A DNA stretch of 64,000 nucleotides, taken from NCBI GenBank assembly GCA_000964245.1, contig LANB01000001.1:124001-188000 (forward strand). Direction: 5' to 3'. Positions 1,097 to 5,351 of the stretch are shown one piece after another. Both the position numbers and the translations under genes were made by a program. The stretch is from Cellvibrionaceae bacterium 1162T.S.0a.05. Lineage in GTDB: Bacteria; Pseudomonadota; Gammaproteobacteria; Pseudomonadales; Cellvibrionaceae. Position 1 is the first letter of the stretch; every line of letters begins with the position of its first letter. The notes beneath the pieces were generated by a model that searched no databases, had not been told where the DNA came from, and saw only the letters and a program-made list of their open reading frames with translations.

Positions 1097-3292
1097 ATGA
1101 ATGCTCGATATTTACTTTTAATTATAACTTCTCTCGCTTTTCCAGGGTTATGCCTTGCGCAGGAATGCGATACTTTTATCAGTTCGCTACCCTATCAAAT
1201 CACCCAGGCAAACAAGACGTACTGCCTGGACGCCCCTGTTAATAGCGAAGGCAAAAAAGAGCTAAGCGTCAATGCGAATTGGGCAAGAACACAAGGTTAC
1301 TTTCGTTATAGCGGAAGCCCGAAAGATAAGTTTATTAAACCTGCTATTTACATCAGAGCAGAAAATGTCACACTCGATTTTAACGGTGTCCGTATACGCA
1401 ATACCCGCCCGAATGACAATCGTATGATCACTGCAGGCGTTTCGGCGCGCGGCAAGACACTTCAAAGTCTGACGATAAAAGGACAAGGCCAAATTGATGA
1501 TTTCAGTATTGGCGTTCTATTGCAATCCATTCCCGCAGTACAAATCGAAGAGATTAACATCACCAACTCGAAGTTAATGGGCATGTCTTTCGAAGCGGCG
1601 TCCTTTACCGACAACCAATCGATAGTCTTGAGAAACAATACCATTTCCAATTTATATAACGACCTCTATGACGATGCGAGCACTTTGGCCGGGATAAGTA
1701 TTACAGATTATGACAGTGCAGAGCTTACAAATAACACTATCGACACGGTTGACTCAGAGGCTGAATCGCATAGATCAAGCCGCGGATTTTCAGTCCTCCG
1801 TTCATATCTAACGCGTATCACAGGTAATACAATTAAAAACCTGGTGCATACCGATATGAGCGCACGTGTTTTCGGCATCAGCCACACGTGCAATCCATCG
1901 CGTAATGGCGAACAAAGCTGTGACGCTATTATCAGTGGCAACACCCTGGAACAGGTTTCTCCGGGCTTTAATGAAATTCATGGCGAATCGATTGCAATTT
2001 ACAATCATTCGTTCGGCGGAGATCTTGCACTCACTGAAAATAACATGGTCAACTTCGCCCAGGCCATTGTGCAAAATGACTCAACACGCGCGCCCGCAAT
2101 CGGTATTTATGCCGGTAATCGTGTAGCGATTTATCAGCCCTATGTTCAAGGACACTTTCCAGCAAGAGAAAATATTTTTCTTGTTGGAACAGGCATGATG
2201 GATGGCGGCAATACAATTTTCATTGCTGGAGAAGATTGTGATGTCGGGATAACAGCCTTACCTTTTACCATTGACGACAATAATAAAACCTATTGTCTGA
2301 CTCCACCCGATGGTGTGGATACGATGATCTTCGATAGAAATAGTGACCACAAACCCATTTCCCACACTGCATATAGCGGTAACGATATTGTCTATGAGGC
2401 GGCGATTACTGTGAAAGCACGCAATGTTGTGTTAAATCTCAACAACGTCAGTATTATAAATAAGGATAAAAGTGACAATGCAGAAGAAGCTGAAATCGGT
2501 ATCTTTGCTCCCAACATCAGCGACAACAACGCCCTCACGATTGAAGGAAATGGAAGACTTATCGACTTCGCAATGGGTATATACGCTGAAAATGTTGATA
2601 CTTTTAGTGTCGACAGTGTCGATATTATTTCTGCTCAACTCGCCGGCATTCTTGCCATAAAACAGGATGGTCCAACTAAACCGGGAACCCGCTACAACGT
2701 TATCAATAGTCGAATACTGGATTTTCACAATGATACTTATTATCAGCAATGGCTATTCTATGGCATCGCTACCTGGCTGTTTTACGAGTCCACCTTTTTC
2801 GAAAACAATTCAATAGAAAATGTTTCTAGCGGGCTCACATCAACCACAACCAATGAGAACAACCAATATTTTGTTGGTATATCCTCTACCGGCTCCACAA
2901 TAATTCAGAACAACCATTTCTCCAATTTAAATAGCCTCTCGCTAGATGAAATCAATTTTGTTACCACCGCAGTGATGGCAAGATGCGAAGGTGCAAGTAA
3001 TTGTGATTCAACGATCAAGGACAACTCTTTCAATCAGTCTGAACTGGGCTTAAACCCTCTAGGTATATTTCTCGTTGGTAACATCGGGAATATTGGGATA
3101 CACAACAATAGCTTTGATCAAATTGAACGTGCGATCACTGTTCAGATTGGCGCTGACATCTCGGGCTCCTACGCCAATAATGTTGTGAGACATGACGCTT
3201 TCCGTGAAGACGGAACACCCGCAGATTCCCCCGCATTCAATACGGGTGCACTGAGTGACGACGGCGGAAACCTGGTTATTGTCACACCTTAA
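1097..3292 (+). CDS. Secreted parallel beta-helix protein with internally duplicated domain
   Basis: A 731-residue protein with a clear Sec signal peptide (hydrophobic ~5-20, cleavage after CLAQ). The mature part consists of two similar halves. Each begins with a Cys-containing segment: SLPYQITQANKTYCLDAP at about residue 30 and ALPFTIDDNNKTYCLTPP at about residue 386. Each then has VTLDFNGVRI / VVLNLNNVSI strands and many N-N-T/S ladder motifs (ITNSKLMG, LTNNTIDT, ITGNTIKN, IIQNNHFS, STIKDNSF), the usual look of right-handed parallel beta-helices. Such folds occur in pectate lyases, PL6 enzymes and adhesins, but I see no catalytic signature, so no substrate is claimed. A GC-rich hairpin follows the stop codon. 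Confidence 0.75.
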   Translation: MNARYLLLIITSLAFPGLCLAQECDTFISSLPYQITQANKTYCLDAPVNSEGKKELSVNANWARTQGYFRYSGSPKDKFIKPAIYIRAENVTLDFNGVRIRNTRPNDNRMITAGVSARGKTLQSLTIKGQGQIDDFSIGVLLQSIPAVQIEEINITNSKLMGMSFEAASFTDNQSIVLRNNTISNLYNDLYDDASTLAGISITDYDSAELTNNTIDTVDSEAESHRSSRGFSVLRSYLTRITGNTIKNLVHTDMSARVFGISHTCNPSRNGEQSCDAIISGNTLEQVSPGFNEIHGESIAIYNHSFGGDLALTENNMVNFAQAIVQNDSTRAPAIGIYAGNRVAIYQPYVQGHFPARENIFLVGTGMMDGGNTIFIAGEDCDVGITALPFTIDDNNKTYCLTPPDGVDTMIFDRNSDHKPISHTAYSGNDIVYEAAITVKARNVVLNLNNVSIINKDKSDNAEEAEIGIFAPNISDNNALTIEGNGRLIDFAMGIYAENVDTFSVDSVDIISAQLAGILAIKQDGPTKPGTRYNVINSRILDFHNDTYYQQWLFYGIATWLFYESTFFENNSIENVSSGLTSTTTNENNQYFVGISSTGSTIIQNNHFSNLNSLSLDEINFVTTAVMARCEGASNCDSTIKDNSFNQSELGLNPLGIFLVGNIGNIGIHNNSFDQIERAITVQIGADISGSYANNVVRHDAFREDGTPADSPAFNTGALSDDGGNLVIVTP

Positions 3293-3307
3293 GCTCCCTC
3301 CCTCCGA

Positions 3308-3331
3308 GAAGCCGCATTACGACGCGGCTTC
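3308..3331 (+). terminator. Hairpin after the beta-helix gene
   Basis: GAAGCCGC and GCGGCTTC form an 8-bp perfect stem around an 8-nt loop, 15 bases after the stop codon. No U-run follows, so it is at best a weak or factor-assisted terminator. Confidence 0.35.
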
Positions 3332-3516
3332 CAACTCTATACATCCTGTTCTAAACTCTGACTTTGTGAATGGTTTCCCATAATCACAACGAAATAGCCT
3401 GAAACGCCTGCTGAGTAAGCCACCAGTATTGCTGTGTCGATCATCCACAGATATCGTGCCTGATTGGCGTTTCTAACTGGAAAGCTTCCAACACGATATT
3501 AGAGTTTTGATTGACT

Positions 3517-4944
3517 ATGCAGGTTTCCGTTGGGCCTCTGCTCCTGGATAAAGACAAAAAATTACTGTTCAATGCCGATCGAGTATTAGTCAGTGACAAC
3601 CCTCGCCTTTTGAACGTTTTTATTCTGCTCGTTGATAACGAACCCGAAATCGTCAGCAGAAAACAAATCATTGATCTACTTTGGCCCGACGAATCCATCT
3701 CTGACTGGGCTGTATCTCGCGTTATTGCTGATTTACGCAGCACCCTCGCTGACGCCGGCTGTGGCGAACTGATTAAAACGGTTCATGGCAAAGGCTTTCG
3801 CCTGGTCGCACCGGTGGAAGCCCTGCCGGCCGAACAGATAGATAAAACAGCGCAACGCCAGAGCCCTATCCTCGCTGTGAGTCTCACCATTTTGGTGGTT
3901 TTGGGAATCGGTTTTTTTGCCCTGCAATACAAAGTGAGTGATGGGCCTGGCCTTCCTGATGCTCAGAACGAAACCGGGATCCACGGCTACGAAAACCAGG
4001 AATCGATCGACTACCCCAGTATTGCCGTCGCGCTCACAAGAAAAGAAGCGACCCATTTACCCCTTGATGACGGCTGGTGGACCTCCGCGCAAGGGGGGCC
4101 CGATTATTCAGAAAATGAACTTAGCTACCAATCCCCAGGCACAATTGGGATTACGCTCGCTCACAACTATCATGGCCCCGACTTTCTTCACGGCGCAAAT
4201 CTCAATATGCGGGTGTCCCTGGACAACACCTACATTGAATCCAACAAGGGCTTATATCTCTTTACCCACCAAATGGGTGGTGAATGGTTACAGTCGCGCT
4301 GCTATTTCGAAGACCTTTCTGCAGGCCCGAATGACTATTCCTGCAGGATTGATGCGCCGGGGCTCGCTTTTGTGCTCGGTGATGATGAATATGCTGTACT
4401 TGGCATCAATGGCGAAAATGATTATTCCAGGGGCCGCATAACGGTGCATTCTGCCTGGATAGATTATCCGCTTTCCGTGCCAATGGACCAAGGTTGGTAC
4501 ACCATCCCACCGCGCCCACTACACTATAATAGCGGGGCAAGCGGCGGAGTCAGCTTTGAACCCAACAATCGCTCGCAAAACCTGGCTTTAACACTCGCTG
4601 GCCCACTAAAACTCCAGAATGCCACCCTCTCTTTTACCTTTGTCGCAGATCAAGCCTATATTGACTCCGGCGCAGAAATTCAGCCCTATGCGCAGCGGGT
4701 TATGGAAAATTGGGACGGCGAGTGGCAGTGCTGGCTATCCAATGAAGACATTTTGCCAGGCGGGATGACCACCCATTGTCAACTTTCCGAAGCACACCCC
4801 ATTTTCAATATTTTGGAGGGTGAGTACCTGGAAATCGGCCTGCGAACGTATGGGCAAAAAGTGAATGGCAAGATTTCAATTCACAGCGTTTCTATTTCCT
4901 GCAGCGAGGCGTTTCCGCGCTGTGGCTTGCAAACCCCACCCTGA
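3517..4944 (+). CDS. ToxR/CadC-like transmembrane regulator with CBM-like periplasmic repeats
   Basis: About 475 residues, starting at the ATG at 3517 (an in-frame TTG lies 6 bp upstream). Residues ~3-100 form an OmpR/PhoB-type winged helix: RKQIIDLLWPDES, then WAVSRVIADLRSTLAD as recognition helix, and KTVHGKGFRLVAPV as the wing. There is no receiver domain. One transmembrane helix (SPILAVSLTILVVLGIGFFA, ~118-137) places the C-terminal ~330 residues in the periplasm, the ToxR/CadC/PsaE layout. The periplasmic part is an imperfect tandem repeat. Repeat 1 has NTYIESNKGLYLF...GGEW..C, repeat 2 has QAYIDSGAEIQPYAQ...DGEWQCW. These resemble beta-sandwich carbohydrate-binding modules of secreted glycoside hydrolases. 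I infer a one-component sugar or polysaccharide sensor; the ligand and target genes are unknown. Confidence 0.75.
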   Translation: MQVSVGPLLLDKDKKLLFNADRVLVSDNPRLLNVFILLVDNEPEIVSRKQIIDLLWPDESISDWAVSRVIADLRSTLADAGCGELIKTVHGKGFRLVAPVEALPAEQIDKTAQRQSPILAVSLTILVVLGIGFFALQYKVSDGPGLPDAQNETGIHGYENQESIDYPSIAVALTRKEATHLPLDDGWWTSAQGGPDYSENELSYQSPGTIGITLAHNYHGPDFLHGANLNMRVSLDNTYIESNKGLYLFTHQMGGEWLQSRCYFEDLSAGPNDYSCRIDAPGLAFVLGDDEYAVLGINGENDYSRGRITVHSAWIDYPLSVPMDQGWYTIPPRPLHYNSGASGGVSFEPNNRSQNLALTLAGPLKLQNATLSFTFVADQAYIDSGAEIQPYAQRVMENWDGEWQCWLSNEDILPGGMTTHCQLSEAHPIFNILEGEYLEIGLRTYGQKVNGKISIHSVSISCSEAFPRCGLQTPP

Positions 4945-5027: not shown

Positions 5028-5351
5028 ATGACGTTTGTAGTGGGTGAAAATTGCATTAAATGTAAGCATACAGACTGTGTGGAAGTCTGCCCGGTAGATT
5101 GCTTCTACGAGGGCCCGAATTTCCTGGTGATTCACCCGGACGAATGTATTGACTGTGCCCTGTGTGAGCCAGAATGTCCGGTTGACGCGATTTTCTCGGA
5201 AGACGAGCTTCCTGAGGATCAGGCCCAGTTCCTTGAACTCAACGCCGAGCTTGCCGAGGTATGGCCGAATATTACGGAAAAGAAAGACGCCCCCGAAGAC
5301 GCCGAAGAGTGGGATGGTGTCGAAGGCAAAATCCAGTATTTGGAACGCTAA
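5028..5351 (+). CDS. fdxA: Seven-iron ferredoxin FdxA
   Basis: A 107-residue ferredoxin of the 3Fe-4S/4Fe-4S type. The N-terminal half has [17 protein letters not shown] and the second motif [15 protein letters not shown], which supply the ligands for the two clusters. The acidic C-terminal extension (~60-107) is typical of Azotobacter FdI / Pseudomonas FdxA proteins. It is a small soluble electron carrier. Its place convergent to rpoS is the same as in Pseudomonas, which supports the assignment. Confidence 0.95.

Follow-up and report, generated by a model that had tools for sequence, protein, structure and literature searches.

The locus and its gene

The window, a stretch of 64,000 nucleotides from Cellvibrionaceae bacterium 1162T.S.0a.05, contains an open frame that runs from an ATG at 3517 to the stop at 4944 and encodes 475 amino acids without an internal stop (table 1). 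We place the start at this ATG, rather than at the TTG 3511 given in the open-reading-frame list, because many of the winged-helix homologues begin with MQYRF. Two Pfam families share the frame, both above their curated cut-offs: Trans_reg_C at residues 30–96 (E 6.8e-11; 42.5 bits, cut-off 26.2) and CBM_15 at residues 341–465 (E 3.4e-9). Among PDB sequences the winged helix matches CadC (5ju7, E 3.4e-6) and ToxR (7nmb, E 5.2e-5). By sequence, the solved structures nearest to the protein are the CadC DNA-binding domain at its N-terminal end and 1GNY, the CBM15 of xylanase Xyn10C, at its C-terminal end, followed by ToxR.

How is the protein placed in the membrane? The hydrophobic stretch at residues 118–136, of mean hydropathy 2.74, is the sole strong one in the protein; no 19-residue stretch starting outside residues 95–145 exceeds 0.98. 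Both features that mark a ToxR-like regulator are present, an OmpR/PhoB-type winged helix at the N terminus and a single membrane helix after it. Since the order of winged helix, membrane helix and C-terminal part is that of ToxR-like proteins, the C-terminal part is presumably periplasmic. An earlier, sequence-only reading had described a ToxR-like regulator with a winged helix, one membrane helix and two glycan-binding repeats; the frame is real, its winged helix is of the ToxR/CadC type and its membrane helix is single. The computation establishes an architecture of one winged helix, one membrane helix and two modules on one chain.

Beyond this general type, the assignments are narrower. 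The CadC equivalog NF007540 scores 36.7 bits against a cut-off of 400 and covers the winged helix only; the HilA equivalog model, far under its cut-off, matches the winged helix only. The RsgI family is absent among the Pfam and NCBIfam matches, the N terminus being Trans_reg_C.

Table 1. Features of the regulator gene and its surroundings. Positions refer to the window, except where they are prefixed by the locus L019.
Feature	Position	Strand	Remarks
632-aa protein	L019:10973-12871	minus	mucin-2 WxxW repeats (E 2.3e-15) and a ricin-type lectin domain
731-aa secreted beta-helix-like protein	1097-3289	+	without Pfam or PDB sequence match
Hairpin in the gap between beta-helix gene and regulator	3308..3331	+	-14.9 kcal/mol, z -3.33, no T run
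Whole regulator gene	3517..4944	+	475 aa; carries the winged helix, a single membrane helix and both CBM15-type modules
Winged-helix DNA-binding domain, cytoplasmic	3517..3816	+	residues 1-100; Trans_reg_C, CadC and ToxR structures
Membrane helix	3868..3924	+	residues 118-136; hydropathy
Putative periplasmic linker	3925..4056	+	residues 137-180; between helix and first module
First module, diverged CBM15	4057..4470	+	residues 181-318; profiles
Second module, CBM15	4474..4911	+	residues 320-465; Pfam, 1gny by phmmer, VIA
Predicted ligand face of module 2	4693..4725	+	Q393, W399, W403 at the places of Xyn10C Q171, W176, W181; phmmer alignment

Two modules of the CBM15 type

How are the two repeats related to one another and to known carbohydrate-binding modules? 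BLASTP aligns repeat 1 with repeat 2 at E 2e-11 and 26% identity, and their Smith-Waterman score is 117, compared with at most 59 in 1000 shuffles. The repetition seen in the sequence-only reading is confirmed, but the patterns by which it was described hold less widely. YI(E/D)S and GEW are common to both repeats, whereas QPYAQ and GEWxCW occur literally in repeat 2 only; repeat 1 has LFTHQ...GEWLQSRCY.

Repeat 2 alone scores 40.1 bits with Pfam CBM_15 (PF03426; cut-off 22, E 3.7e-10) and matches 1gny by phmmer at E 4.2e-6. A model of this module was predicted from a four-row alignment (mean pLDDT 64.8, pTM 0.62), with the first 34 residues mostly below 50. The same reading had supposed beta-sandwiches resembling carbohydrate-binding modules and proposed structure prediction with fold comparison as the check; for repeat 2 this is borne out. 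Foldseek places 1gny first (E 8.4e-7), and 1gny is also best by VIA-align 2, at Z 14.5 and an rmsd of 2.5 with 137 aligned; the next VIA entry outside Xyn10C, at Z 10.0, is again a carbohydrate-binding module. The model of both modules together, built from a two-row alignment, is poor (pLDDT 50.0), and its first Foldseek matches are 1us2 (2.7e-5), the surface glycan-binding protein 7kwb (5.1e-5), 1gny (8.6e-5) and tandem CBM22; what is said here of the fold of module 2 is drawn from its own four-row model and not from this one. We conclude from Pfam, PDB sequence and predicted fold that the second module is a CBM15, in sequence and, as modelled, in fold.

The first repeat stands further off. 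The region 4030–4470 falls short of the gathering score of any Pfam family, and searched alone against PDB sequences it gives a best E of 0.67, which is not convincing. Against a profile free of rows from the window it scores 41.1 bits; with filters off the score is 45.1 bits, compared with 5.9 bits for the highest-scoring of 2000 shuffles. It matches profile A1, which contains repeat 2 of the window (a match by construction) but not repeat 1, at E 1.3e-12. Because the Pfam threshold is not reached while these other profiles lend support, we call module 1, on its sequence profiles, a diverged relative of CBM15.

The predicted ligand face

Do the modules retain the means to bind a sugar? We take N106, Q171, W176, W181 and Q217 of Xyn10C to be the residues that hold xylopentaose; a literature search by these residue names found nothing on CBM15. 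Chain positions 81, 86, 91 and 127 of 1gny fit Q171, W176, W181 and Q217 with an offset of 90, in agreement with the chain range printed by VIA. Three of the five contacts are kept in module 2: both platform tryptophans and one of the three polar contacts. The place of Q217 is occupied by E439. The presumed N106 column carries Ile in module 2 and Asn in 15 of the 17 xylanase-group modules. Module 1 has a single platform tryptophan, W257, which the profile places opposite W176 and BLASTP opposite W181; H251 stands at the place of Q171, and the cysteine pair C262/C276 is kept. The conservation of an aromatic binding face, on which the sequence-only reading had staked its claim, is accordingly divided between the repeats, with both platform tryptophans in the second but one only in the first.

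Of the 17 xylanase-group modules (15 GH10 frames plus two modules of L074, a frame that shows no catalytic domain), 14 combine Q171 with an aromatic residue at each of the two platform places; so do 37 of 54 lipoprotein modules, and none of the four modules grouped as GH5-and-other (three GH5 frames plus the short frame L068) does. The place of Q217 varies within the family, since 27 of the 54 lipoprotein modules have R or K there.

These residues bear upon a reading in which the modules no longer bind sugar and serve instead for dimerisation or protein contact, for example by docking a periplasmic sugar-binding protein, as CBP does on ChiS. The face of module 1 is half lost, and the other ToxR-like proteins of the family bear many unrelated C-terminal parts, both of which would suit such a role. 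It is harder to reconcile with module 2, which retains precisely the set of Q171 and platform residues that prevails among the xylanase-group and lipoprotein modules. We regard a loss of sugar binding as improbable.

Distribution in the Cellvibrionaceae

At E ≤1e-5, profile A1 matches 32 of 144 family genomes, that of the regulator included. Around these matches lie 50 distinct frames, the regulator among them, two being locus-edge cuts of others. When a winged-helix profile of 23 rows is run over the 50, the regulator's frame alone matches; one start among them, that of L074, lies beside a masked base and is hidden from view. A lipobox is recognized by pattern in 45 of the other 49 frames, the four exceptions being L029 (which reads LMAC), L067 (a signal-like start), L068 (short) and L074 (start hidden). 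Fifteen of the 49 carry GH10, two by Pfam and the rest by 64–94% identity to one of these in the catalytic part. Three carry a cellulase-type GH5, and CBM15 is thus not restricted to xylanases. Tandem CBM15 lipoproteins of the family (for example L024, Marinimicrobium alkaliphilum) share the two-module layout of the regulator, with 36% identity over the aligned pair, but have a signal sequence with lipobox where the regulator has its winged helix and membrane helix. Lipoproteins bearing between one and four CBM15-type modules are numerous in genomes of the family (L010/L021, L012/L022, L013/L023, L065), some of them adjoining TonB receptors and genes of the tryptophan-halogenase type. The CBM15 lipoproteins could be a binding-protein class of sugar uptake.

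Residues 1–160 of the regulator, searched in their turn, are matched in 21 of the 144 genomes (own included) at E ≤1e-10. Besides the regulator itself 23 matches were listed, of which 22 were read, some ending at a locus edge. The best is a paralogue in the same genome, 33% identical over residues 9–116. By eye, the C-terminal parts of the 22 are receiver-like, TPR-like, propeller-like or other, and none is CBM-like. At L088-L096, L098, L100 and L103, mostly of genus g4, a ToxR-like winged helix and membrane helix are followed by a receiver-like part (ILWVDDNPDNN... by eye; L092 is of another type), so that a response-regulator-like domain apparently sits on the far side of the membrane helix.

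No orthologue of the regulator was found in the 143 other family genomes searched. Its architecture is unique among them and is known from one genome. A scan at the level of the order with profile A1, scoring at most 10 candidates per genome, gave matches in 7 of 390 genomes, all of the same family; a scan of the class gave 1 of 369, the window's own. A scan of genome contigs matched 91 stretches and confirmed one, a single locus.

From 77 distinct module rows, the 13 with fewer than 80 residues were removed and a tree was built of the other 64; it groups the two modules of the regulator with a lipoprotein module and not with the GH10 modules. Support is weak (88/75), the rows are long, and the branches of the two modules measure 1.29 and 2.06; we set the tree aside as proof of module origin on account of the support and the long rows.

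Might the regulator then be a lineage-specific fusion, perhaps non-functional, with no settled regulatory role? Its presence in 1 of 144 family genomes, beside two adjoining genes that likewise have no relatives in the family, agrees with that, and the long branches could mean relaxed constraint. Yet the 475-codon frame, the winged helix and module 2 are all intact, and the face has been kept in spite of a divergence that would have allowed its decay. A non-functional fusion therefore seems to us very improbable.

The chromosomal setting

The regulator is the last of six genes in a 13-kb insertion between mutS and fdxA, which extends from L019:7950 (where mutS ends, 8.05 kb before the window) to position 5028 of the window. 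The first two of these genes, for proteins of 883 and 632 aa, lie on the minus strand; the plus strand carries the next three, for proteins of 788, 467 and 731 aa, and then the regulator. Pfam confirms the names MutS and 4Fe-4S ferredoxin. fdxA was found at threshold in 27 of 29 genomes searched (own included). In each of the 26 relatives among these, MutS lies at most 1.5 kb before it; of their 27 loci this holds for 26, the remaining one being a second fdxA copy of one genome. The G+C content of the insertion does not stand out. The 632-aa gene is divergent from the lipoprotein genes.

What might the regulator control here? The sequence-only reading had proposed the adjacent secreted beta-helix and Asp-box proteins as its targets. 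The shared insertion links the regulator to both genes. The beta-helix protein lacks a CAZyme match, and at E 1e-8 none of the other 143 family genomes yields a relative of it. At the same threshold the 467-aa Asp-box protein has no relative in those 143 genomes and one weak match elsewhere in its own; it shows a sub-threshold glycosylhydrolase match only. No xylan-degrading or other CAZyme catalytic domain lies above cut-off in the nearby insertion genes scanned, and by eye no ToxS-like gene lies directly beside the regulator. Consensus searches found neither a terminator nor a promoter between the beta-helix gene and the regulator, and the hairpin after the former (table 1) means that the regulator may be its own unit. 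In a k-mer comparison of low power, window 3293-3546 was set against a divergent intergenic region and the sequences upstream of eight of the nine GH10 genes (just 144 bases for one of these). No shared DNA motif stood out: of 200 shuffles, fractions of 0.70, 0.08 and 0.585 reached the best observed value at k 8, 9 and 10. With an intervening hairpin, no match to a CAZyme above threshold and no shared motif in that low-power test, the proposal of these two genes as targets finds no support.

These neighbours enter into another reading, that the modules bind some other glycan, be it xylan with a different decoration, a beta-glycan of another kind or a glycan of the envelope, and that the surface-protein genes of the insertion, beta-helix, Asp-box and lectin-like, are what is controlled. 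Glu at the place of Q217, the variability of that place among the lipoprotein modules and Ile in the presumed N106 column would be in keeping with a changed ligand, as would the sharing of the insertion with five genes, one of which carries mucin WxxW and ricin-lectin domains. Against it, the protein closest in both fold and sequence is the xylan binder 1GNY, the genome holds nine GH10 matches, and the scanned insertion genes, as noted above, are without a CAZyme catalytic domain above cut-off. We consider a different glycan unlikely, though less so than a loss of sugar binding.

A probable sensor of xylo-oligosaccharides

Is there xylan use in this organism? Nine matches to GH10 and three to GH43 pass the cut-off in its genome, where CBM15 is matched nowhere but within the regulator. 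A CBM15 probe bound xylohexaose with a Ka of 34 x 10^3 per M, which is 16 times its affinity for cellohexaose (PMC4807533). A Teredinibacter turnerae protein of two jelly-roll domains, one near 1GNY, is described as secreted only on xylan (PMC12055684). At locus L022 of one family genome, G077, a lipoprotein that contains a CBM_4_9 as well as two stretches of CBM_15 lies beside a TonB receptor and a GH3 whose best model, beta-xylosidase/arabinosidase, stays under its cut-off. The xylose isomerase there scores 662.6 bits (cut-off 533.25); for the kinase and the sugar porter the best models are XylB and XylE, both under their cut-offs, and the porter passes the general sugar-porter model. Clear xylose genes occur at this one of the four CBM15-lipoprotein loci read (L020-L023). 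Of the other three, L021 has a TonB receptor and two genes of the tryptophan-halogenase type, L020 lies among housekeeping genes (by eye), and at L023 there is an alginate lyase at a distance of some 7 kb.

At the inner membrane of a Gram-negative bacterium, a protein would encounter such oligosaccharides as enter the periplasm rather than the polymer beyond the cell. The earlier claim that the protein senses a polysaccharide directly is upheld as to its CBM-type modules but not as to the ligand, which we reword, from the inner-membrane location, to periplasmic oligosaccharides. From fold, face, host and kin, the sensing of periplasmic xylo-oligosaccharides is likely.

We favour, with reasonable though far from full confidence, a one-component sensor of periplasmic xylo-oligosaccharides, of the ToxR/CadC type, with a CBM15 pair as its sensor. 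The module pair would most likely have been taken over from the common CBM15 lipoproteins of the family. The GH10 xylanases of the cell would free xylo-oligosaccharides, which would be imported across the outer membrane and, in the periplasm, bind the second module at the face of Q393, W399 and W403. Binding would alter the pairing or spacing of two receptor molecules. The signal would pass through the single membrane helix, whereupon the winged helices would bind or release promoters of xylan use; here the target genes and the switch are supplied from ToxR-like proteins in general. What speaks against this sensor is that module 2 lacks Q217 and the presumed N106, and that module 1 has half of its aromatic face and lacks Q171. 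To this are added the absence of an orthologue in the 143 other family genomes searched, of a xylan-degrading domain above cut-off among the genes nearby and of a motif shared with the eight GH10 upstream regions, the lack of clear xylose genes at three of the four lipoprotein loci, and the GH5 enzymes that carry CBM15.

Relation to known systems

As in other ToxR/CadC-type regulators, an N-terminal winged helix, a single membrane helix and a C-terminal periplasmic part make up one chain; the difference is that here the sensor is a CBM15 pair. With the CBM15 of Cellvibrio japonicus Xyn10C (1GNY), module 2 has in common its predicted fold, the cysteine pair and Q171, W176 and W181. That module, however, sits on a xylanase, whereas here it is doubled, placed on a membrane transcription factor, has Glu for Q217 and has seemingly lost N106.

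The plan resembles that of RsgI of Clostridium thermocellum, a membrane protein whose outer carbohydrate-binding module reports polysaccharide to transcription (PMC4711584). RsgI differs in that it holds a sigma factor and is cut by proteases (PMC12203970), while the DNA-binding domain of the regulator is in the same chain; no homology between the two was seen. ChiS and TfoS of Vibrio cholerae are also membrane-bound transcription regulators that answer chitin oligosaccharides. ChiS is likely activated by way of a chitin-binding protein, and whether TfoS senses chitin directly is described there as unclear (PMC11856585); the present protein, by contrast, carries within its own chain a sugar-binding module of known type.

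For Gram-negative degraders, hemicellulose sensing is described mainly in terms of hybrid two-component and ECF sigma systems (PMC10766802), and the word ToxR does not occur in the text of that 2024 review. Among the literature matches listed there was no protein with a CBM15 or other carbohydrate-binding module on a ToxR/CadC-type, winged-helix, one-component regulator; in the one listed paper that mentions both ToxR and a carbohydrate-binding module, ToxR occurs solely among the references. A census of transmembrane regulators gives its domains in a supplement, where an uncommented entry for such a protein is possible (PMC10269533). The membrane transcription regulator is a known kind; the CBM15 sensor, and its pairing with such a regulator, are new as far as we have seen.

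One may, more tentatively, go a step further and see in the regulator a one-protein receptor for xylan fragments, in which the binding pair of a lipoprotein was moved onto a ToxR-like chassis to become the master switch of a xylan system with nine GH10 enzymes. We hold this fuller picture to be possible, and somewhat doubtful as a whole. A one-component receptor with a module of the xylan-binding type would itself be a minimal sensor open to direct test, since a single chain would hold both the ligand site and the DNA readout, and sugar biosensors might make use of it. Such a receptor would show, too, that evolution can turn the binding modules of enzymes and lipoproteins into signal inputs, as clostridial RsgI does on a chassis of another kind.
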